A stretch of DNA of 35,371 bases from Prosthecobacter sp. (lineage in GTDB: Bacteria > Verrucomicrobiota > Verrucomicrobiia > Verrucomicrobiales > Verrucomicrobiaceae): positions 1 to 35,371 of the forward strand of contig JAUREI010000020.1 in assembly GCA_030827515.1 (NCBI GenBank), given 5' to 3'. Of the stretch, positions 10,639-24,257 are shown piece after piece. The number at the start of each line of letters is the position of its first letter. Position 1 is the first letter of the stretch. The notes beneath the pieces are model-generated. The model did not search any database, was not told the DNA's origin, and saw only the letters and a program-made list of their open reading frames with translations. The position numbers were made by a program, and so were the translations under genes.

Positions 10639-12789
10639 ATGTCCAATCCGAACTCCCCCAACCGCCAGTTTCCCCTGGAGCGCACCCGCAACATCGGGAT
10701 CTGCGCCCACATTGACGCGGGCAAGACCACTCTCACCGAGCGCGTGCTTTTCTACACTGGCATGATCCACAAGATCGGCGAGGTGCACGAGGGTGCCGCC
10801 ACGACCGACTGGATGGAGCAGGAGCAGGAGCGCGGCATCACCATCACTTCCGCCGCCGTTACGGCTTCCTGGAAGCAGCTCAAGGAAGAGGGCATCTACA
10901 AGACCCGCGAGCTTGAGGAGATGCGCATCAACATCATCGACACCCCGGGGCACGTGGACTTCACGGCCGAGGTGGAGCGCTCCCTGCGCGTTCTTGACGG
11001 CGCCATCTTCGTCCTCTGCGGCGTGGCCGGTGTCCAGCCGCAGTCCGAAACCGTCTATCGCCAGGCGGAAAAGTATGGCGTGCCGCGCATTGCCTTCGTC
11101 AACAAGATGGACCGCACCGGCGCCAACTTTGAAAACGTCGTCAAGGATGTGCGCGAGAAGCTGGGTGCCAACGCCTGGCCGATCCTGATCCCGATCGGAG
11201 CCGAGGACAACCTGTCCGGACAGATCGACGTGGTGAACCAGAAGGCCATCATCTACTCCGACAACGACAAATTTGGTTCGACCTACGCCGTGCGCGACCT
11301 GCAGGGCGACGAGGTGGCGAAGGCCAAGCAAGCCTATGATGGCCTCGTTGCGGCGATTTGCGATGTCGACGATGAGCTTGGCATGATGTTCCTTGAGGAG
11401 CAGCCGATCACCGTTCAGGACATCAAGGCCGCGCTGCGCCGGGCCGTCATTGCCAACAAGATCATCCCGATGGCGGGTGGCTCCGCCTTCAAGAACAAGG
11501 GCGTGCAGTACCTGATCGACGCCGTCATCGACTACCTGCCGGGCCCGCTCGACATTCCGCCGCAACAGGGCCAGTCCGTTGACGATCCTGAGGTGAAGAT
11601 CGACGCCGTCCCGGATGACAATGGCAAGTTCATCGCCCTCGGCTTCAAGCTGTGGTCCGACAAATTTGGCCGCCTCGTCTTCTTCCGGGTCTACTCCGGC
11701 TGCGTCAAGAAGGGCGACACCATCTACAATCCCCGCACCCGCAAGAGTGAGCGCGTCGGCCGTCTGATTCAGATTCAGGCCTCGGTTCACAAGGACATCG
11801 ACGCGTGCTATTCCGGCGATATCGCCGCCCTGGTCGGTGTCAAGGATGTGCGCACCGGCGACACCTTCTGCGACGAGGACCTGGACATCCAGCTTGAGCC
11901 CCCGACCTTCCCCGAGCCGGTCATTTCGATGGCCGTCGAACCGAAGACCAAGGGCGACCAGGAGAAGATGGCGAACGCCCTCCAGCGCCTCTCCGAAGAG
12001 GACCCGACCTTCTTTGTCAAGACCGACGAGGAAACCGGCCAGACCATCATTGCCGGCATGGGTGAACTCCACCTGGAAATTCTCTGCGACCGCCTCAAGC
12101 GCGAGCACAAGGTCGAAACCAACACCGGCAAGCCGCAGATCGCCTATCGTGAAACCCTCACGAAGGAAGCCGACGGCGAGGGCAAGCTGGTCAAGCAGTC
12201 CGGCGGTCGCGGTCAGTATGGCCACGTCGTTCTGAAGGTCTTCCCGGGTGAAAAGGGCAAGGGCGTCACGGTCGACAACAAGGTCGTCGGCGGCACCATC
12301 CCGAAGGAATACATCAACGCCTGCAAATCGGGCTGCATGGAGGCCGTGCTCAACGGCATCATCGCCGGCTACCCGGTCATCGACATGCACATCGACCTCC
12401 TGGACGGTTCGAGCCACGAAGTCGACTCCAACGAAAACGCCTTCAAGATGGCCGCCATCTTCGCCGTCAAGGACGCTCTCAAGAAGGCCAAGTGCATCCT
12501 GCTTGAGCCGATCATGGCCGTCGAGTGCTCGACCCCCGAGGACTATCAGGGTGACATCATGGGTGACCTCAACCGTCGCCGCGGCAAAATCCTCGGCATG
12601 GAGACTCGCGGCAACAGCGCCATCCTGCGCGCTGAAGTGCCCCTGGCCGAAATGTTCGGCTACTCCACCGCCATCCGCACCCTTTCCTCGGGTCGCGCCT
12701 CCTATTCCATGCAGCCCTCGCACTTCGAGCAGGTGCCGCAGCAGATCGTCGACCAGATCGTCGAGCAGCGCGGCGGCGGCAAGAACTAA
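10639..12789 (+). CDS. fusA: Translation elongation factor G
   Basis: A 716-residue translocation GTPase. The G domain is intact: P-loop AHIDAGKTT (23-31), DTPGH (101-105), NKMD (155-158), and the [11 protein letters not shown]5 region. Domain II follows ([21 protein letters not shown], split across about 334-354). Later come domain III (the [17 protein letters not shown] stretch), domain IV ([11 protein letters not shown]), and a C-terminal [17 protein letters not shown] segment. All mark bacterial EF-G rather than TetM-like or RF3 proteins. It is slightly longer than average (about 700). It follows rpsG by 41 bp. Normally tuf comes next; here rpsJ follows 35 bp later, so EF-Tu must be encoded elsewhere. 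Confidence 0.98.
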
Positions 12790-12824
12790 CCCCAAGCAGA
12801 AACCTTCAACGTCGGAACACCGTC

Positions 12825-13133
<309 letters not shown>

Positions 13134-13179
13134 TCCGCGCAAATCCGGCTGAATAACTCATACACAGGAGACTCTGAAT

Positions 13180-13830
13180 ATGGCTCTAGGACTGATTGGA
13201 AAAAAGCTTGGCATGACCAAGGTGTACACCGACAAGGGCGTGGCGGTCGCCGTCACCGTCGTCGACGTCAGCGGCAACACCGTGATCCAGGTGAAGCAGG
13301 CGTCGGGCAAGGATGGCTACAGCGCCGTTCAGGTCGGCTATGGCGACCAGAAGGAATTTCGCGTCAACAAGCCTGCCCTTGGCCACTTTAAGAAACACAG
13401 CGTCACCCCCAAGCGTCACATCAAGGAGTTTCGCCTGGCCTCGGACGAGCAGCTTCCCGCGGCTGACGCCACGCTGGACGCCGGCCTGTTCAGCGCCGGT
13501 CAATGGGTTGACGTCATCGGCACGACCAAGGGCAAGGGCTTCCAGGGCGTCATGAAGCGCTGGAACTTCAGCGGACAGCCTGCCACCCACGGCCACATGA
13601 TGCACCGCCGGCCCGGTTCGATCGGCTGCCGACTCACCCCCGGTCTCGTCTGGAAGAACCAGAAGATGCCCGGCCATGATGGCGTCGAGCGCGTCACCAC
13701 CCAGAATCTGAAGGTCGTCCAGAGCCGCCCCGAGGAGGGCATCCTGCTCATCAGCGGCGCCATCCCCGGCAACAAGGGCAGCATCGTCGTGGTGCGTCCC
13801 GCCAAGAAAAAGGCCGCCCCGGCCAAGTAA
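13180..13830 (+). CDS. rplC: Ribosomal protein L3
   Basis: A 216-residue early-assembly protein of the large subunit near the peptidyl-transferase centre. Conserved parts are LGLIGKKLGMTKVY at the start, VIGTTKGKGFQGVMKRWNF in the middle, the GQPATHGHMMHRRPGSIG loop (around 134-151), and MPGHDGVERVT. The loop Gln (in SGQPATHG) is the residue methylated by PrmB in other bacteria. An AGGAG site lies 9 bases before the ATG. The Ala/Lys-rich C-terminus (PAKKKAAPAK) is usual. It is followed 21 bp later by rplD. Confidence 0.98.
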   Translation: MALGLIGKKLGMTKVYTDKGVAVAVTVVDVSGNTVIQVKQASGKDGYSAVQVGYGDQKEFRVNKPALGHFKKHSVTPKRHIKEFRLASDEQLPAADATLDAGLFSAGQWVDVIGTTKGKGFQGVMKRWNFSGQPATHGHMMHRRPGSIGCRLTPGLVWKNQKMPGHDGVERVTTQNLKVVQSRPEEGILLISGAIPGNKGSIVVVRPAKKKAAPAK

Positions 13831-13851
13831 TTCCACAGGAGGTACCGTAAC

Positions 13852-14460
13852 ATGCCAGCAACCGTTCTTTCCCCCGAAGGCGCCCGCCAGGCCAGCCTGA
13901 ATCTGACCGAAGGTCACCAGGGCAAGCAGGCGCTCAACGACGTCGTCGTCGCCTACCGCGCCAATCGCCGCCAGGGCAATGCCCACACCAAGAACCGCTC
14001 GGAAGTTTCCGGCAGCGGCAAGAAGCTCTGGAAACAGAAGGGCACCGGCAACGCCCGCATGGGCAGCAAGCGCTCGCCGATCTGGAGTGGCGGCGGTGTC
14101 GTCTTTGGCCCGCGCAGCCGCGACTGGTCGAAGACCACCACCAAGAATGTCCGCAAGCTCGCCCTGCGCGCCGCGCTCACCGCCCGCATCAATGACGGAG
14201 CCGTGCTCACCGTTGACAGCTTCAGCGTTGCCGACGGCAAGACCAAGAGCTTCGTCGCCACGATCGGCGGTCTTGCCACCCAGAACAAGGTTCTCGTCGT
14301 TGGCCAGGCCTTTGACGAGCCGACCTTCCGCTCCGGCCGCAACGTCCAGAATGTTCAGCTCATTTCCGCCGACGAGGTCAACGCCGAGCACCTGCTCAAC
14401 TACGCCCAGGTGATTGTGACCGCGGACGCCCTGCCAACCCTTGCCCGGAGGACCGCCTGA
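13852..14460 (+). CDS. rplD: Ribosomal protein L4
   Basis: A 202-residue 50S protein lining the exit tunnel. The long internal loop is conserved: RANRRQGNAHTKNRSEVSGS, then KKLWKQKGTGNARMGSKRSP (a form of the usual KPWRQKGTGRARAGS). The globular C-terminal part has LRAALTARINDG and a VIVTADAL strand. In E. coli L4 represses the S10 operon; nothing here shows whether that holds. It has a strong AGGAGGT ribosome site before the ATG. The start codon of rplW lies one base after its stop. Confidence 0.97.
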   Translation: MPATVLSPEGARQASLNLTEGHQGKQALNDVVVAYRANRRQGNAHTKNRSEVSGSGKKLWKQKGTGNARMGSKRSPIWSGGGVVFGPRSRDWSKTTTKNVRKLALRAALTARINDGAVLTVDSFSVADGKTKSFVATIGGLATQNKVLVVGQAFDEPTFRSGRNVQNVQLISADEVNAEHLLNYAQVIVTADALPTLARRTA

Positions 14461-14461
14461 T

Positions 14462-14746
14462 ATGAAAGACCCCCATTCCGTGATTCAATCGATCCGCCTC
14501 AGCGAGAAGGCGACGCGTCTCGGCGAGACCAACAACGAGTACGTTTTCCTGGTCAATCCCCAGGCCAACAAGCTTGAGATCAAGCGCGCCGTCGAGGCTC
14601 ATTTCGGCAAGAAGGTGGAGGCGGTCCGCACCGCCAACTTCTTCGGCAAGGCCCGCCGCGAGCGCCGCGCCGATGCCGGTCGCACCAACCACTGGAAGAA
14701 GGCCGTCGTCCGCCTCAAGGAAGGCGAATCGCTCGACCTCGTGTGA
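14462..14746 (+). CDS. rplW: Ribosomal protein L23
   Basis: A 94-residue protein at the tunnel exit, docking site for trigger factor and SRP. It shows L23 features: IQSIRLSEKATRL near the start, NEYVFLVNPQANKLEIKRAV (around 22-41), and FGKKVEAVRTANFFGK. The loop has the usual basic RRERRADAGRTNHWKKA. I chose the ATG at 14462, one base after the rplD stop; its GGAGG ribosome site lies inside the end of rplD, which suggests coupled translation. An upstream in-frame ATG at 14441 lies inside rplD and is not preferred. Confidence 0.97.
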   Translation: MKDPHSVIQSIRLSEKATRLGETNNEYVFLVNPQANKLEIKRAVEAHFGKKVEAVRTANFFGKARRERRADAGRTNHWKKAVVRLKEGESLDLV

Positions 14747-14787
14747 ACCCCCTTTTCGGAAACCTTTAATCAGAAAGACGCAGAGCC

Positions 14788-15627
14788 ATGGCGCTGAAAA
14801 ATTTCAAGCCCACCACCCCGTCAAACCGGTACAAGGAGTGGAACTCCTTTGAAGAGATCACCAAGAGCGAGCCTCAGCGCAGCTTGACCGTGGCCCTTCG
14901 CAAATCCGGTGGCCGCAACAACACCGGGCGCATCACCTGCCGCCACATTGGCGGAGGCCACGACCGTCGCTATCGCCTGCTTGACTTCAAGCGCGCCCGT
15001 CGCGATGAGGCCGCCAAGGTCATCGGCATCGAATACGACCCGAATCGTTCCGCCCGCATTGCCCTTGTGGAATACAAGGACGGTGAGCGCGCCTACATCC
15101 TCGCCCCCAACAACCTCAAGCTCGGCGCCAGTGTCATGGCCGGCGAAAAGGCGGCCCCGGAAGTCGGCAACTCCCTGCCGCTGCGCCGGATCCCGCTTGG
15201 CACCAGCATCCACAATGTTGAACTGGTCAAGGGTCGCGGAGGTGTCGTCGCCCGTGCCGCCGGCCAGGCTGCCATTCTTTCCAACCGCGAAGGTGACTAC
15301 GCCCTCGTCAAGATGCCCTCCGGTGAAATCCGCAAGATCCACGCCGAGTGCTACGCCACCATTGGCCAGGTCGGCAACGTCGAGCACATGAATGTCGTCT
15401 CGGGCAAGGCCGGCCGCACCCGCTGGCAGGGCACCCGCCCGACCGTCCGCGGCATGTGCATGAACCCCATCGACCACCCGAACGGTGGTGGTGAAGGTCG
15501 CTCGAAGTCCGGTGGTGGTCGCCAGCACCTGCTTAGCCCGTGGGGACACGCCAAGGGCCAGAAGACCCGCAACCCGAAGAAGGCCACCGGCAAGCTGATC
15601 GTTCAGGATCGCCGCGCCAAGAAGTAA
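14788..15627 (+). CDS. rplB: Ribosomal protein L2
   Basis: A 279-residue large-subunit protein needed for subunit association and peptidyl transfer. All family segments are present: [10 protein letters not shown] near the start, [82 protein letters not shown], and the C-terminal [15 protein letters not shown]. The usually invariant DHPHGGGEG reads DHPNGGGEG here; the first His (E. coli His229) is kept and the second is replaced by Asn. The length is normal. There is only a weak purine stretch before the ATG. Confidence 0.98.
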
Positions 15628-15663
15628 TCCGTCAACGCAACCCGATTTCACGCACGCACTTTT

Positions 15664-15942
15664 ATGGCACGCTCCCTCAAGAAAGGCCCCTTCGTTCAGC
15701 AGGCCCTCCTGGAAAAGGTGGACAAGCTCAATGACGCCGGCCAGAAGCGCCCGATCAAGACGTGGGCGCGCAGCTCCATGATCACGCCGGACCTCGTCGG
15801 CCACACCTTCCTCGTCCACAACGGCAAGGATTTCGTGTCCGTCTACGTCACCGAGAACATGGTCGGTCACCGCCTCGGCGAGTTCGCCCTGACCCGTCTG
15901 TTCAAGGGCCACGGTGCCCACACGGTCAAGGCCTCCAAGTAA
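15664..15942 (+). CDS. rpsS: Ribosomal protein S19
   Basis: A 92-residue protein of the 30S head that contacts S13 and the A-site finger. It starts [20 protein letters not shown] as expected. The core [20 protein letters not shown] and the end [20 protein letters not shown] are textbook S19. There is no purine-rich ribosome site. Normally rplV follows directly; here an unrelated exported-protein gene starts 21 bp downstream. Confidence 0.98.
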
Positions 15943-15963
15943 CACCTCCTGATTCCTCCGACC

Positions 15964-16755
15964 ATGCTGACCCCGTTTGCCAACCTCCTCAGGCCCGCCC
16001 TGCCGCTCGTCGCGGCCTGGGTTGGCTGCTGTGGGTTGGTGCGCGCGCAGTCGGCCTTCGAGTATCAGGAATTGAACACCGCCCTGGAGCTTGCCGCGCA
16101 GAAAATCCAGGCTCTCGAATCGCAACTCGCCGCAGCTCAGGGCCGCGGCGAAGCCCTGGCCCAGAGTGCCGCCGCCGCCAACCAGGAAGCCGCCGAACTG
16201 CGCGACCGTCACGACCGCCTGCGCGGTTTGCTGGAAGGACTGGGCATCGCTGCCCTTGAGCAGCAGCCGGATGTCGTTCAGGAGCGCCTGCTGGCTGCCT
16301 TGTCCGACCTGCGTGTCTCTGAAACATCCCGCCAGCGCTTGGCCGACACCCTCATGCAGCTGGCCGAGGTGTCGATTGACTTTGCCAAGACGGTGCCCGC
16401 GCCGGACGCGGCCGCCGAACAGCGGCTCTCGGCCGCCCTCGAGCGCGCTGAGCAGGTGCTTGTCACCGCCAGTGCCGCGCCCGCCCCGGCGGCCGAACCC
16501 GCAAGCCTCCAGGAGGTGCGCGTGGTCAGCCTCAAGCCGGAACTCGGCGTGGCCGTTCTCTCCGCCGGTTCCCGCGACGGCGTCAAGCCTGGCATGCCCT
16601 TTGAAATTTATCGCGAGGACAAACCCATCGCAAAGATTCTTGTCACCGAGGTTCGCAGCTCCGTCAGCGGCGCCATCGTGCAGGAACTCGCAAATCAAGC
16701 TGATCCCGTGAAAGTCGGGGACAGAGGTAAAGTGGACATCAACCGATCATTCTAA
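15964..16755 (+). CDS. Exported coiled-coil protein inserted between rpsS and rplV
   Basis: A 263-residue protein with no ribosomal similarity. Residues 1-29 are a signal peptide (hydrophobic core ALPLVAAWVGCCGLV, likely cut after RAQS or nearby). Residues about 35-90 form a coiled coil rich in Ala, Glu, Gln and Arg, and a further helical stretch runs to about 165. After an Ala/Pro linker, residues about 183-263 form a beta-rich domain (VVSLKPELGVAVLSAGSRDG, VKPGMPFEIYRED, then VGDRGKVDI). That pattern resembles small MreC- or FlgT-like beta domains in exported proteins; this is by eye only. It is probably periplasmic or surface-facing. The stop is 3 bp before the rplV ATG, so the two are surely co-transcribed. 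There is no Shine-Dalgarno. The function is unknown. Confidence 0.9.
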   Translation: MLTPFANLLRPALPLVAAWVGCCGLVRAQSAFEYQELNTALELAAQKIQALESQLAAAQGRGEALAQSAAAANQEAAELRDRHDRLRGLLEGLGIAALEQQPDVVQERLLAALSDLRVSETSRQRLADTLMQLAEVSIDFAKTVPAPDAAAEQRLSAALERAEQVLVTASAAPAPAAEPASLQEVRVVSLKPELGVAVLSAGSRDGVKPGMPFEIYREDKPIAKILVTEVRSSVSGAIVQELANQADPVKVGDRGKVDINRSF

Positions 16756-16758
16756 GTT

Positions 16759-17154
16759 ATGGAAGTGCGTTCGATCTACAAATACGCCCGAATCTCCTCT
16801 CAGAAGGCCCGTCAAGTGACGCGCGCCATCACGGGGATGCCGGTCTCGCAGGCGCTTAGCGTCCTCGATTTCACCCCCAAGAAGGCCGCCCTCCTGGTTG
16901 GCAAAGTGCTGCGCTCCGCCGTCGCCAATGCCGAGAACAACCACGAGCTCGACGCCGAGGAACTCGTTGTGCGCAGTGCCGTCGCCACCCCTGGACCGAC
17001 CCTCAAACGCATCATGCCCCGCGCCCGCGGATCCGCCGCCCCGATCAAGAAGCGCATGACCCACATCACGGTCATCCTTGGTGCCAAGGAAGAAGAAAAG
17101 CCGGCGGCCGCCAAGCCCGCCGCCAAGAAGCGCAAAGCCGCCGTCGCCGAATAA
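16759..17154 (+). CDS. rplV: Ribosomal protein L22
   Basis: A 131-residue exit-tunnel protein. It has the expected YKYARISSQKARQVTRAITG start, AVANAENNHELDAEELVV centre, and the tunnel hairpin and C-terminal strand (PTLKRIMPRARGSAAPIKKR, then MTHITVIL). After residue 108 comes an unusual Lys/Ala/Glu-rich tail of about 22 residues (KPAAAKPAAKKRKAAVAE). It begins only 3 bp after the exported-protein gene and has no ribosome site of its own, so its translation may depend on that gene. rpsC follows 20 bp later. Confidence 0.97.
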   Translation: MEVRSIYKYARISSQKARQVTRAITGMPVSQALSVLDFTPKKAALLVGKVLRSAVANAENNHELDAEELVVRSAVATPGPTLKRIMPRARGSAAPIKKRMTHITVILGAKEEEKPAAAKPAAKKRKAAVAE

Positions 17155-17174
17155 TCCGCCAACACCTCAGATTT

Positions 17175-17942
17175 ATGGGACAGAAAGTCAATCCGATCGG
17201 TTTCCGCCTCGCCGTCACCAAAGACTGGCGCTCCAAGTGGTATGCTCCCGAAAAGGAGTTTGCCGAGGCCCTGCACAGTGACCTCGCCATCCGCAAATAC
17301 CTGAAGGACAAGCTCATGCAGGCCGCCGTTGCGCGCATTGTCATTGAGCGCGCCTGGAACCAGGTCCGTGTTACCCTGCACACCGCACGTCCGGGTCTCG
17401 TCATCGGCCGCAAGGGCCAGGAGATCGAGGTCATGAGCCAGAAAGTCTCCGAAATGTGCGGCGGCAAGCAGGTCAAGATCGACATCTTTGAAATCAAGCA
17501 ACCGGAACTGGACGCCCAGCTGGTTGCCGAGAGCGTGGCCGTTCAGCTCGAGCGCCGAATCTCGTTCCGCCGTGCGATGAAGCGTTCGGTGCAGACCGCG
17601 ATGGACATGGGTGCCGACGGCATTCGTATCCGCGTTGCCGGTCGCCTGGGCGGCGCTGACATTGCCCGCGCCGAGCAGTATCGTCAGGGCAAGGTCCCCC
17701 TTCAGACCCTGCGCATCCCGATCGACTATGGCTTTGCCGAAGCCCGCACGGTTTATGGCATCATCGGCATCAAGGTCTGGCTGAACCGTGGCAACGCCCC
17801 CGAGAACAGCCAGCCCCGTGGTGACCGTCGCCGTGAGCGTTCGGACCGCGGTGATCGCGGTGGCCCCGGACGTCGCGGCGGCGAGCGTTCCGCTCCGGCC
17901 TCCTCCCCGGCTCCCGCGCCGGCCCCGGCTCCCGAGGCCTGA
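17175..17942 (+). CDS. rpsC: Ribosomal protein S3
   Basis: A 255-residue 30S protein at the mRNA entry tunnel. It begins MGQKVNPIGFRLAVTKDWRS. The KH domain GxxG loop is VIGRKGQE (76-83). Later come RRAMKRSVQTAMDMGADGIR and GRLGGADIARAEQYRQGKVP, followed by TLRIPIDYGFAEA. Normal S3 ends near residue 210-235; this one adds an Arg/Gly/Asp-rich then Pro/Ala-rich tail (RRRERSDRGDRGGPGRRGGE and APAPAPAPEA). Such low-complexity tails are seen in some phyla; the role is not known. Confidence 0.98.
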   Translation: MGQKVNPIGFRLAVTKDWRSKWYAPEKEFAEALHSDLAIRKYLKDKLMQAAVARIVIERAWNQVRVTLHTARPGLVIGRKGQEIEVMSQKVSEMCGGKQVKIDIFEIKQPELDAQLVAESVAVQLERRISFRRAMKRSVQTAMDMGADGIRIRVAGRLGGADIARAEQYRQGKVPLQTLRIPIDYGFAEARTVYGIIGIKVWLNRGNAPENSQPRGDRRRERSDRGDRGGPGRRGGERSAPASSPAPAPAPAPEA

Positions 17943-17981
17943 TTTGTCCACTCCAAGACCCCAACTCCGGAATTCTGACTT

Positions 17982-18401
17982 ATGGCTCTTCTTCCCAGTC
18001 GTGTTAAACATCGCAAAACCCAGCGCGGCAGCCGCGCAGGCACCGCTTCCCGTGGCAACAAGCTCGATTTCGGGGAGTTCGGCCTGCAGACGCTGGACCG
18101 TGGTTGGATCAAGAACAACCAGATCGAAGCCTGCCGCGTCGCCATCAACCGTTTCCTGAAGCGCAAAGGCAAGGTCTTCATCCGCATTTTCCCGCACAAG
18201 CCGGTTACCGCTCGTCCCCCGGAAACCCGAATGGGCAAGGGCAAGGGCTCACCCGAATTCTGGGTTGCCGTCGTGCTGCCGGGTCACATGCTGTTCGAAA
18301 TCTCCGGCGTCAATGAGGCGATTGCCAAGGAAGCCTGCCGTCTCGCCGCCAATAAGCTCGGCCTGCGCACCCGCTTTGTCTCACGCGCCGCCGCCCATTA
18401 A
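17982..18401 (+). CDS. rplP: Ribosomal protein L16
   Basis: A 139-residue 50S protein near the A site. It starts [20 protein letters not shown], and carries [20 protein letters not shown], the [20 protein letters not shown] segment that includes the arginine region hydroxylated in E. coli, and [13 protein letters not shown]. Its length is typical. It lies 39 bp after rpsC and 21 bp before rpmC, the normal order. Confidence 0.98.
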
Positions 18402-18422
18402 TCCCACAGAACCGTCACCGAT

Positions 18423-18626
18423 ATGAAGACCAAGGAACTTCGAGAGCTTTCCGTTGAGGAACTGGGCGCCCGCCGCCGCGAGCTGCGCCAGGAAATGCTC
18501 AATCTGCGCGTCCAGCAGCAGATCGGCCAGCTTGAAAACCCGGCCCGCCTCCACCTCCTGCGTCGCGAGGTCGCGCGCATCGAAACCATCCTTTCCGAAC
18601 GCTCCGCCGCCGCCCAGGCCGCCTGA
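18423..18626 (+). CDS. rpmC: Ribosomal protein L29
   Basis: A 67-residue two-helix protein beside the tunnel exit, next to L23. It starts [20 protein letters not shown] and includes [20 protein letters not shown], matching L29, then [12 protein letters not shown]. The frame ends with a short Ala-rich tail. It lies between rplP and rpsQ as usual. There is no Shine-Dalgarno. Confidence 0.97.
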
Positions 18627-18661
18627 GTCGGAGCCACCCCCACCAGCACCCCATTTACATC

Positions 18662-18943
18662 ATGAGCGAGGCCGTCACTGAAGCAGCAGCAAACACCCGG
18701 GCCCCTGTCCGCAAGGAGCGGGTCGGCGTGGTCGTGTCCGACAAAATGTCCAAGACCATCGTGGTCGAGGTCGAGCGTCGCGTCCCGCACCCGCGCTTCA
18801 AGAAAATCATCCGCAAGACCTCCAAGTTCTACGCCCACGACGAGAACGAGCAGGCCAAGGTCGGCGACCGTGTTCTCATCGTTGAGAGCCGCCCGCTGAG
18901 CAAGCTCAAGCGCTGGACCCTCCAGGAGATCCTGAAACACTAA
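18662..18943 (+). CDS. rpsQ: Ribosomal protein S17
   Basis: A 93-residue primary 16S-binding protein with an OB fold. After a 16-residue N-terminal extension rich in Ala and Thr comes the S17 core: [40 protein letters not shown], and [19 protein letters not shown]. Later in-frame ATGs fall inside the core, so the extension is kept. It follows rpmC by 35 bp. Confidence 0.97.
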
Positions 18944-18980
18944 GCCAAGAACCTTTCACCCCCTCTAGGAGAACACCGCC

Positions 18981-19347
18981 ATGCTGCAGATGGAATCCTC
19001 AATTCCGGTGGCCGACAACACCGGAGCCCGCGTCGCCAAAATGATTGGCGTGCTCGGCAAGAAGAACACGCGCCACGCCTTTGTTGGCGACATCATCACC
19101 GCCCACGTTCGCGAGTCCACCCCGAGCCAGCGTCAAGAAGGGTGAGGTCGTCCGCGCCGTCGTCGTGCGCACCGCGCACCCGATCCGCCGCTCCGACGGC
19201 TCCATCCTGCGCTTCGACCGCAACGCCATCGTCATCATCGACAAGGACAACAATCCGAAGGGAACCCGCATCTTCGGTCCCGTGGCCCGCGAGCTGCGCG
19301 ACAAGAACTTCATGAAGATCGTTTCCCTCGCCCCCGAAGTGCTATGA
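18981..19347 (+). CDS. rplN: Ribosomal protein L14, reading frame broken as given
   Basis: The first part, from the ATG at 18981 with AGGAG just upstream, encodes [19 protein letters not shown] through [15 protein letters not shown] and then hits a TGA at 19143-19145. The rest of L14 continues one base out of frame from about 19126: [42 protein letters not shown], ending VSLAPEVL at 19347. The join lies around 19122-19130. Restoring two missing bases there would give 122 residues, the usual L14 length; removing one would give 121. L14 is essential and both halves are well conserved, so an assembly or sequencing error is most likely. A true mutation or programmed shift is less likely. The stop overlaps the rplX start (ATGA). 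Confidence 0.93.
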
Positions 19348-19619
19348 GCCGCATCAAAACCCACGTCAAGAAGGGTGACAACGTCACCGTCATCGCCGGA
19401 GCCCACAAGGGTGCCCAGGGCGTCATCCTGGAAGTCCAGCCCGCCAAGGCCCGCGTCCTCATCGAGGGCGTGCGCATGATCAAGAAGACGGTGCGCCCCT
19501 CGCAGGAGCGCCCGAACGGCGGGATCATCGAAAAGGAAGGCCCCATCCACATTTCCAACGTCAAGCTCGCCGAAACCAAACCAAAAACGGCGAAGAAGAA
19601 GGTTGCGAAGAAGAAGTAA
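19344..19619 (+). CDS. rplX: Ribosomal protein L24
   Basis: A 91-residue assembly-initiator protein of the 50S subunit with a KOW motif. It shows [20 protein letters not shown] (KOW), [20 protein letters not shown], and [17 protein letters not shown]. The C-terminus is a Lys/Ala run ([11 protein letters not shown]). The ATG overlaps the rplN stop by 4 bp, indicating translational coupling. After it comes an 82-bp gap, one of the longer gaps in the cluster, in which I see no convincing promoter or terminator. Confidence 0.97.
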
Positions 19620-19701
19620 TCCCCCAAATTGCCTCCCCCTCCGTTTCCGTCCGGCCACCGCCGGGCCCGCTGAGGAAAGGCGGCACAGCCCAAACTGAAT
19701 C

Positions 19702-20274
19702 ATGGAACCCCAGCTACAGACTCTCTACAAGGAGCAACTCCGCGCCCAGCTCAAACAGCAGCTTGGCCTTGCCAATGTCCACCAGGTCCCCAGCCTCGAG
19801 AAGATCGTCGTCAACTGCGCCGTCGGCTCCCAGGGCGAGCGCAAGCAGGCTGTCGAGGACGCGGTCAACGAAGTCGCCCTCATCACCGGCCAGAAGCCCG
19901 TGATCACCCTCAGCAAGAAGGCGATCGCCAACTTCAAGCTGCGCGCCGGTGAACCGGTTGGCGTCAAGGTCACCCTGCGCGGCCGACGTATGTATGACTT
20001 CCTCATGCGCCTGGTGAAGACCGCCATTCCCCGCATCCGCGACTTCCGCGGTGTTGCCCCGAAGGCCTTCGACGGCCGCGGCAACTACACGCTGGGCATC
20101 AACGACCAGTCCATTTTCCCGGAGATCGAGCTCGACAAGATCAAGCGCACGCTGGGCTTTGACATCACCTTTGTCACCTCCACCGGCAACGATGACCATG
20201 CCCGCGAGCTGCTGCGCGCACTCGGCATGCCGTTCCGCGGCAAAACCGCCGTCGCCAAGGCCGACGCCGCCTAA
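19702..20274 (+). CDS. rplE: Ribosomal protein L5
   Basis: A 190-residue 5S rRNA-binding protein of the central protuberance. Conserved parts are [79 protein letters not shown], and [20 protein letters not shown]. The C-terminus has a short extra KADAA. It is directly followed, after 27 bp, by rpsH; rpsN, which normally lies between, is absent. Confidence 0.98.
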
Positions 20275-20301
20275 TTCTGAAAAGCCGACCCTTCGCGCAC
20301 C

Positions 20302-20691
20302 ATGACCGATCCCATTTCCGATTATCTCACCCGCATCCGCAACGCTGCCTCCGCCGGCCAGCAGGAGGTGTTCGTGCCGTTCTCCAAGATGAAGTCCGAA
20401 CTCTCCCGCATCCTGCAGGAGGAAGGCTACATCTGGAGCTACGAGCTGGACACCAGCGCCGCGCATCCGCGCCTGAAGCTCAAACTCAAGTACCAGGGCA
20501 AGGCCCCCGTTATTCGGCACCTCTCGCGCGTCAGCAAACCGGGTCTGCGCAAGTACGTCTCCACTGACGAGATCCCGCGCGTGCTCGGCGGCCTCGGCAT
20601 CGCCATTCTCTCGACCTCGCGCGGCATCATGACCGGCGCCCGCGCCCGCAAGGCCAAGGTCGGCGGCGAACTGCTCGCCCAAGTCTGGTAA
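20302..20691 (+). CDS. rpsH: Ribosomal protein S8
   Basis: A 129-residue 16S central-domain protein. It begins with DPISDYLTRIRNA, and the C-terminal RNA-binding half has VLGGLGIAILSTSRGIMTGA and RARKAKVGGELLAQVW. In E. coli S8 is the repressor of the spc operon; regulation here is not visible. There is no purine-rich ribosome site. The length is typical. Confidence 0.98.
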   Translation: MTDPISDYLTRIRNAASAGQQEVFVPFSKMKSELSRILQEEGYIWSYELDTSAAHPRLKLKLKYQGKAPVIRHLSRVSKPGLRKYVSTDEIPRVLGGLGIAILSTSRGIMTGARARKAKVGGELLAQVW

Positions 20692-22754: not shown

Positions 22755-24257
22755 ATGATCTCCGCCTTTGCCAACGTCTTCAAAGTCCCCGAACTGAGGT
22801 CCCGCATCCTCTTCACCCTGGCGATGATCGTCATTGTCCGGGTCGGCACCGCCATCACCCTTCCCGGGGTTGATGCCACTGTTCTCGACGAGTGGGTCAG
22901 CAGCCGCACCTCCGACGCCAGTTCGGGCGCTGCCCAGGTGGCGGCCCTGCTCAACGTGTTCAGCGGCGGTGGCCTGGCAAATTGCGCCATCTTCGCCTTG
23001 GGCATCATGCCCTACATCAGCGCCTCGATCATGCTGCAGCTTCTCACCGCCGTGGTGCCGCGGCTGAGCAAGCTGGCCCGCGAGGATGGCGGCCGCCAAA
23101 AGATCACCCAATACACCCGCATCGCCACCATCGTGCTGTGCCTGTTCCAGGGCTACCTGCTTGCCAAATCCCTGCAGAGCCCGGGTCAGAACATCTTCCT
23201 TGGCGGACTCCAGGAGGTCATCGACCGCCTGCAGCGCCCGCTGGTCCCAAACTTTGGTTTCTTTGAGTTCGTCCTGCCCACGGTGATCACCATCACCGCC
23301 GGCACCATGCTCATGATGTGGCTGGGTGAGATGATCACCGAGCGCGGCATCGGCAACGGCATCTCGCTGCTGATCTGCGTCAACATCGTCTCCGACCTGC
23401 CCGGTGCCCTCGTTCAGGTCTGGCAGACCTACGTTGGCAACGTTGGCGGCGACATGACCCGCCCGGCGATGCTGGTGCTGCTGCTCGCCTTCATGGTGGC
23501 GGTCATCGCCGGCGTCATTGCCCTGACCCAGGCCACCCGGCGCATTGTCATCCAGTATGCCAAGCGCGTGGTCGGTCGCAAGGTCTATGGCGGGCAGACC
23601 CAGTATCTGCCGCTGAAGATCAATTATTCCGGCGTTATGCCGATCATTTTCGCCCAGGCAATCCTACTCTTCCCCTCGCAGATCATCTCCTCGATGTTCC
23701 CTGACGTCGGCTGGATCCAGCGCTTCTCGGCCGCGATCGCCTCCGGCTGGATCTATTACACCATCTCCGCGGCGCTGATTTTCTTCTTCAGCTACTTCTG
23801 GGTCGCCACCATGTTCCAGCCGACCCAGATCTCCGAGGATCTCAAGAAGAGCGGCGGTTACATCCCTGGCATCCGCCCAGGCAAGCCGACCGCCGACTTC
23901 CTCGATTTCACGATGAGCCGTCTCACCTTTGCCGGCGCCATCTTTCTGACCCTCCTCTACATCATGCCCGGCGTGGTCAGCGCCGCGATGGGCATCGCCC
24001 CGCAAACCGCCCAATTCTTTGGCGGCACCAGCCTGCTGATTCTGGTCGGCGTCGTTCTTGATGTCATGCGCCAGGTCGAAACCCACCTGCTTCAGAGCCA
24101 TTACGACGGCTTTCTCAAGAAGGGACGCATCCGTGGCCGCTTTGACCGCATCCAGCAGACCGGCAAGGTTGCGGACGCGACCACTCTCGTCCGCCTCTGG
24201 ATTGCCATTGCGGTGATGACCCTGATTGGCGTCGCCTGGTTCATCGCCGGCAAGTAA
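22755..24257 (+). CDS. secY: Preprotein translocase subunit SecY
   Basis: A 500-residue channel subunit of the Sec translocon with about ten transmembrane helices. It starts FANVFKVPELRSRILFTLAM; helix 2 has ALGIMPYISASIMLQLL. Later come LGEMITERGIGNGISLLICV, QYAKRVVGRKVYGGQTQYLP, LKINYSGVMPIIFAQAILLF, and EDLKKSGGYIPGIRPGKPTA, all SecY signatures. At 500 residues it is longer than the E. coli protein (443), mainly through a longer first periplasmic loop, a loop around residues 135-170, and a short C-terminal extension. It follows rplO and precedes map, as usual. Confidence 0.98.
   Translation: MISAFANVFKVPELRSRILFTLAMIVIVRVGTAITLPGVDATVLDEWVSSRTSDASSGAAQVAALLNVFSGGGLANCAIFALGIMPYISASIMLQLLTAVVPRLSKLAREDGGRQKITQYTRIATIVLCLFQGYLLAKSLQSPGQNIFLGGLQEVIDRLQRPLVPNFGFFEFVLPTVITITAGTMLMMWLGEMITERGIGNGISLLICVNIVSDLPGALVQVWQTYVGNVGGDMTRPAMLVLLLAFMVAVIAGVIALTQATRRIVIQYAKRVVGRKVYGGQTQYLPLKINYSGVMPIIFAQAILLFPSQIISSMFPDVGWIQRFSAAIASGWIYYTISAALIFFFSYFWVATMFQPTQISEDLKKSGGYIPGIRPGKPTADFLDFTMSRLTFAGAIFLTLLYIMPGVVSAAMGIAPQTAQFFGGTSLLILVGVVLDVMRQVETHLLQSHYDGFLKKGRIRGRFDRIQQTGKVADATTLVRLWIAIAVMTLIGVAWFIAGK

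Follow-up and report, generated by a model that had tools for sequence, protein, structure and literature searches.

A predicted exported coiled-coil/barrel protein encoded between rpsS and rplV in the S10 operon of Verrucomicrobiota

Few features of bacterial genomes are as stable as gene order in the S10 cluster. What, then, is a gene for a predicted exported protein doing between rpsS and rplV in a Prosthecobacter sp. draft genome, and is it a real gene at all? The window analysed here is an entire contig (C90; 35,371 nt) of that draft, which consists of 315 contigs. An earlier reading made without database searches (the sequence-only reading) had described a 263-aa open reading frame that starts 21 bp downstream of rpsS and stops 3 bp short of rplV, and these coordinates were confirmed: the gene, here called X, spans 15964-16755 on the + strand (263 aa plus stop, ATG start, TAA stop), with the rpsS stop codon ending at 15942 and the rplV ATG at 16759. 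The identities of the neighbours rpsS (uS19; 15664-15942, + strand; TIGR01050, E 1e-39) and rplV (uL22; 16759-17154, + strand; TIGR01044, E 2e-36) were confirmed with Pfam and NCBIfam.

A conserved gene at the rpsS-rplV site

Long antisense ORFs occur in the window (e.g., one of 625 aa at 14821-16698, minus strand), thus ORF length alone is no proof that X is a gene. A chance ORF was ruled out by homologues in relatives and by purifying selection on X, and an assembly join, an error that the sequence-only reading had proposed to check, was ruled out by the same gene order in many loci, including isolate and single-contig genomes. X is a real gene at the rpsS-rplV site, and it is neither an assembly join nor, as detailed below, a recent insertion.

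In the Prosthecobacter genome itself, BLAST found a single copy of X, and a profile search gave two weaker candidates elsewhere (L214 and L215) among the matches listed. In the search of relatives, a set of 56 genomes that counts the Prosthecobacter genome itself, X was matched at E <= 0.001 in 53 and in all 44 near-complete ones; the weak match in G006 (2.4e-4) is probably a paralogue. The order rplB-rpsS-X-rplV-rpsC is kept in 60 of 65 loci (L001-L065; overlapping collections, with about 40 distinct proteins in 62 of these loci), the other five being cut by contig ends, so that X is not absent from all close relatives, an outcome that the sequence-only reading had allowed for. Thirty-five fetched loci are labelled as Verrucomicrobiaceae, Prosthecobacter, Brevifollis or uncultured Verrucomicrobia. 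The same order recurs in 27 of 28 loci (L066-L093; one cut by a contig end) from several families of the same order and, for three loci, from other orders. Loci with the conserved order include the isolate genome of Brevifollis gellanilyticus NBRC 108608 (L035) and four single-contig genomes (L070 = G039, L073 = G042, L077 = G046 and L084 = G054).

Tabulation of the rpsS-rplV interval across Verrucomicrobiota had been set beforehand as a test, and X proved to be conserved at the site far beyond the genus. Within the class, BLAST matched X in 108 of 188 genomes, and in the 119 whose interval was scored, X lies between rpsS and rplV in 71; one other has the markers on different contigs, one is matched only at another place and the remaining 46 gave no BLAST match. 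Fifteen of these 46 have a gap of 387-469 bp, and all 12 large-gap loci fetched from them (L094-L105) encode a short exported-type protein of 108-130 aa. In the large-gap genomes G101 and G152 the profile match falls between rpsS and rplV; the large-gap genome G231 was left out of the locus reading. A thirteenth short form (L109) comes from a genome outside the 119. By hhalign, the short forms share homology with the C-terminal domain of long X (probability 98.3, E 2e-14), and in Opitutales-like families they consist of a predicted signal peptide and barrel without the coiled coil. X ranges from 108 to 310 aa in the loci studied. A gap of 23-143 bp without X was found in 28 of the 119 scored genomes, and three of the 46 have other gap sizes and no recognised X.

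The phylum survey covered Verrucomicrobiota, and outside the class rplV was found in 93 of 96 genomes. X lies <=400 bp upstream of rplV in 41 of the 93, with rpsS just upstream in 15, elsewhere in 25 and not found in one. The remaining 52 comprise 22 genomes with rpsS and rplV linked and no X (adjacent in most), five linked with a match only elsewhere, 12 split without X, 11 split with a match only elsewhere and two without rpsS. Lineages without X thus exist repeatedly alongside X-bearing ones.

Where rpsS and rplV are split, a count that includes drafts with rpsS on another contig, X is found beside rplV in 25 of 48 genomes. A looser profile detected X upstream of rplV in five more split loci (L174, L176, L191, L193 and L208) and in none of 16 other fetched split loci (L175, L177-L190 and L192); the split loci read in this way showed no rpsS match within the approximately 2 kb fetched upstream (1.4 kb in L209). 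Among the profile matches listed, X lies beside rpsS in no split genome. In the single-contig genomes G290 and G313, rpsS and rplV are far apart. When 20 loci, all but one from outside the class, were read directly, X adjoined rplV in 18 and rpsS adjoined X in 16; the other two are paralogue pairs elsewhere. X stays with rplV when the S10 operon splits. The phylum-wide range, the coil-less short forms, the retention with rplV after fission and the repeated absences go beyond the sequence-only reading.

Across L174-L213, which come from other classes, the break in the S10 operon lies upstream of rplV, and X often heads the rplV-rpsC-rplP part.

Evolutionary history and selection

The tree was built from rplV, rpsC and rplP (186 tips, 426 columns; midpoint-rooted, no outgroup). 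Its tips were picked for variety, hence the presence of X in 124 of the 186 is not a prevalence. L120 and L137 were left out for missing markers, and L153 was set by hand to X present, since X lies about 360 bp from rplV there, beyond the search span; its split flag stems from the limits of the stretch that was fetched. Presence and absence of X require 17 changes on the tree, whereas 200 shuffles all needed 42 or more. At equal costs the root state is nearly tied (17 changes with X present versus 18 with X absent), and it is X-present more clearly if a gain is costlier (21 versus 25 at cost 2, and 23 versus 33 at cost 5). Operon splitting takes four changes, and a single clade of 39 tips, 25 of them with X, holds most of the split ones; fission may thus be largely one event, and the counts of X-rplV retention are not independent.

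In 63 loci, distances between X proteins track those between ribosomal proteins (Mantel r 0.668 against a permutation maximum of 0.149), with a divergence about 3.8 times that of the ribosomal proteins. The median dN/dS of X is 0.096 and the maximum 0.237 in 173 pairs, which are not independent and were kept from 215 computed after a dS filter of 0.05-2; X is under purifying selection. Searches for X in a phage collection, a plasmid collection and PHROGs gave no match. The sequence-only claim that X is not a recent mobile insertion holds, given the same site across the phylum, the Mantel correlation and the empty phage and plasmid searches; such an insertion was ruled out by the presence of X in close relatives, its vertical-like divergence and the lack of a phage or plasmid match. 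Together, the tree changes, the Mantel test, the dN/dS values and the empty searches indicate that X is old, mainly vertically inherited, under selection and lost many times. It appears to have been kept at the site for most of the history of the phylum. Many lineages lack X and have rpsS and rplV adjacent, therefore X is dispensable over evolution.

This history bears on whether the position of X has any meaning. X could be a passenger, an envelope gene with a useful function that at some time inserted into a strong operon and has remained because S10 gene order changes slowly, with no regulatory significance. Presence and absence of X are both widespread, the inertia of the S10 cluster can account for most of the retention, and the low codon adaptation of X described below suggests that it is not needed at ribosomal-protein levels. 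However, X has been kept beside rplV through fission, across families and classes, and its losses leave rpsS and rplV adjacent, yet no intact copy has been recognised elsewhere (the G194 match, at L221, is of a paralogue type). We regard this passive account as possible but the less likely one.

Predicted architecture and resemblance to known proteins

The sequence-only reading had proposed a signal peptide, a coiled coil and a C-terminal beta domain, all of which are backed by our own signal-peptide heuristic and by structure prediction. The heuristic, which looks for a hydrophobic stretch followed by small residues, predicts a signal peptide at residues 1-28 (15964-16047, + strand), with cleavage perhaps at VRA|Q, although the exact site is uncertain. 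A signal-peptide-like stretch was found in 121 of 123 long loci, in 13 of 13 short forms and in 21 of 23 split-operon members (20 of these 21 with cleavage-like residues) versus 2 of 15 ribosomal and FusA proteins used as controls. A helical, coiled-coil-like region at about residues 30-170 (16051-16473, + strand) is modelled at moderate confidence, with helices at 10-92, 94-100, 102-114, 120-142 and 149-170. It is followed by a predicted six-strand, FlgT_C-like beta-barrel at about residues 183-260 (16510-16743, + strand). The full-length model, in which the barrel occupies residues 185-257, has a mean pLDDT of 71.2 and a pTM of 0.33, with pLDDT of about 80-89 in the barrel, which modelled alone reaches a mean pLDDT of 86.6 and a pTM of 0.75.

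The genomic company of X, with secY downstream in the same cluster (22755-24257), could point to a direct role with the ribosome or translocon, e.g., in membrane attachment of ribosomes. The signal-peptide-like N-terminus, the envelope-type barrel and a divergence far above that of ribosomal proteins all speak against such a role, which we consider highly improbable.

The best structural matches of the barrel are FlgT chains (Z 10.7-11.6, rmsd 1.9-2.5 Å, 75-79 residues), with F1-ATPase barrels following within about 1 Z; with the two so close, the match defines a type of fold and indicates no single function. A review likens the FlgT C-domain to an F1-ATPase domain and describes its topology as that of periplasmic adaptor barrels (PMC4446572). 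To the FlgT C-terminal domain in particular (PF16538; PDB 3w1e, 8z5n), the X barrel is alike at Z 11.0-11.6 over 77-79 residues, and 12 of 35 members of the X family give weak sequence matches (best 6.2e-5). However, the best singly scanned member (L093) scores 23.8 bits, below the Pfam gathering cut-off of 27, the window protein itself has no match, X has neither the N-terminal nor the middle domains of FlgT, and its gene sits in the S10 operon with no flagellar context.

The layout of X, an N-terminal hydrophobic segment followed by a coiled coil and a barrel, also resembles that of MreC. NCBIfam NF010520 matches 5 of 35 X members (best 4.4e-7; none at 0.001 in 10 rescanned), and Foldseek pairs the X barrel alone with 2j5u at E 5e-3; the PF04085 match of L128 reaches 18.2 bits, below the cut-off of 28. 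MreC has two barrels, whereas the models of X show one, and the gene context of X differs. A profile search of solved structures recovered, apart from mostly coiled coils, TsaP, the type IV pilus secretin-associated protein (PDB 3jc8), weakly (E 6.6e-4 over 40 residues of the X barrel). TsaP bears a LysM domain, and none was found in the domain scan of the window protein. The same collection gave no relative up to E 1 in phmmer with the window protein and nothing credible with the short-form profile. The scores seen for FlgT_C and for the Pfam MreC family stay below the curated cut-offs, and the window protein passes none in the Pfam and NCBIfam scans.

Like the non-ribosomal genes of the S10-spc-alpha clusters, such as secY, X is embedded on the same strand with short gaps and conserved neighbours, but it lies inside the S10 core, is predicted to be exported and has a range established here within the one phylum surveyed. 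It recalls the PVC signature protein (CT421.2 homologues), likewise lineage-marking and of unassigned function in the same superphylum, but PMC3444138 describes that protein as ~53 to >80 aa, whereas X has 108-310 aa, a predicted signal peptide and a predicted barrel. Judged from sequence and models, X would represent a family of exported coil/barrel proteins, new and as yet without a name, whose genes lie within the S10 cluster. Non-ribosomal genes in ribosomal operons were already known; what would be new is a predicted exported coil/barrel family in the S10 core. Our literature queries, in which chloroplast papers swamped the rpsS-rplV terms and subscription journals were mostly uncovered, returned no report that a gene separates rpsS from rplV in Verrucomicrobiota.

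Barrels of this kind belong, in known proteins, to envelope machines, which leads us to read X as an exported coiled-coil/barrel envelope scaffold, an old and mostly vertically inherited gene expressed from the S10 ribosomal operon (probability roughly 0.6). X would be transcribed within the operon just ahead of rplV and exported, probably to the periplasm. There, the coil, variable in length and sometimes absent, could oligomerise, and the FlgT_C-like barrel, as the conserved working part, would dock to a partner in an envelope assembly, for which the wall-elongation machinery, a pilus/secretin complex or similar are candidates; the most likely action of X is structural. Against the scaffold reading stand the many lineages with rpsS and rplV adjacent and X absent, codon adaptation below that of its neighbours, a root state nearly tied at equal costs on a midpoint-rooted tree without an outgroup, no family match above a curated cut-off among the scores compared, and a barrel fold that is not specific to a function.

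A second family, found elsewhere in some of the genomes, combines the same barrel with helices and a membrane-anchor-like segment at the N-terminus. This membrane-anchored paralogue type was located at L216:3378-5017, L217:4601-5347, L218:4499-5248, L219:4820-5614 and L221:4052-4816, and L216 holds two tandem copies. A relocated X was considered for genomes without a copy at the site and rejected, as the G194 match (L221) and those of L216-L219 are of this type. Tandem pairs of large barrel proteins were also seen away from ribosomal genes (L165:1810-3535 and L166:1591-3564); in the corresponding genomes, G249 and G240, a gap of about 120 bp separates rpsS from rplV and X is absent from it.

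Expression and the association with rplV

Co-transcription of X with its neighbours is suggested by the shared strand, the short gaps and a simple scan of 15600-17250, in which the stretch from rpsS to rplV showed neither a promoter-like site nor a terminator-like one on the + strand. Transcription in the same operon would tie the production of X to that of ribosomes, and the growth-rate-linked envelope role put forward in the sequence-only reading stays a conjecture. The statement that the composition of X fits the operon stands for overall GC but fails for codon adaptation, which at 0.51 is below all 15 ribosomal and fusA genes (0.578-0.773), and for GC3 (0.764 versus 0.836). From the lower codon adaptation, X is probably made at a lower level than the ribosomal proteins.

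The sequence-only reading had also suggested that rplV, having no ribosome site of its own, may depend on translation of X. The absence is real, but strong anti-Shine-Dalgarno pairing was seen only in rplC, rplD and rplW of the 16 operon genes tested (10639-20691); 13 of 16, X, rplV, rpsS, rpsC and rplB included, are equally without it, hence the argument for coupling is weak. In loci with X, a strong Shine-Dalgarno sequence precedes rplV in 7 percent of 110, rpsS in 11 percent of 123 and rpsC in 11 percent of 120, versus 37 percent of 71 for rplV and 62 percent of 72 for rpsC in the mixed remaining loci. The spacing from the X stop to the rplV start has a median of 19 nt and a range of 0 to 132 (123 loci). 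In the genus set the rplV start is slightly less accessible than those of the four other genes compared (0.49 versus 0.58-0.64), but this does not hold in the wider set. No distinctive structure was found at the rplV start.

These data bear on whether X might act in cis, as a SecM-like monitor whose own translation and export are sensed and determine how strongly rplV and the genes downstream of it are translated; ribosome synthesis would then follow secretion capacity. Known arrest peptides act in the exit tunnel, which L22 lines. Such a regulator would agree with the retention of X beside rplV, and not rpsS, after fission, with the short median gap, with the rarity of a Shine-Dalgarno sequence at rplV in X loci and with the signal peptide and C-terminal domain kept in all forms. 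The likeness to SecM is nevertheless one of position only (a predicted signal peptide and a place just upstream of rplV): 55 aligned members, inspected by eye, share no conserved C-terminal arrest sequence, their last residues vary and the conservation resides in the folded barrel. Moreover, the gap is variable, rpsS and rpsC in X loci are equally poor in Shine-Dalgarno sequences, the accessibility signal is confined to the genus set and the retention counts may go back largely to one fission event. We judge a cis-acting role quite improbable.

A broader proposal is that X works together with rplV as a conserved functional pair, in which export of X would report secretion or envelope capacity to the synthesis of L22 and the genes downstream, or X would proportion envelope growth to ribosome output. 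Its main support is that X stays with rplV when the operon breaks, a pattern that may go back to few independent events, and we hold the proposal to be doubtful. If true, the pair would be a phylum-specific, hard-wired link of ribosome production and envelope building that survives breakage of the S10 operon.

A phylum-spanning, predicted exported protein inside S10 that is kept by rplV after a break suggests a connection between ribosome supply and the envelope. This connection is open to testing in a tractable species, Verrucomicrobium spinosum, in which gene essentiality has been screened with transposons and targeted mutagenesis is established (PMC12283558). For Verrucomicrobiota, a phylum with few genetic studies, X also provides a marker and a new uncharacterised family.

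In the window, Rfam gave no match at the gathering threshold and a tRNA search found none. The rplN gene is frameshifted in the draft contig (18981-19347), with its first part running to an early stop and the remainder in another frame, which is probably an assembly or sequencing error.
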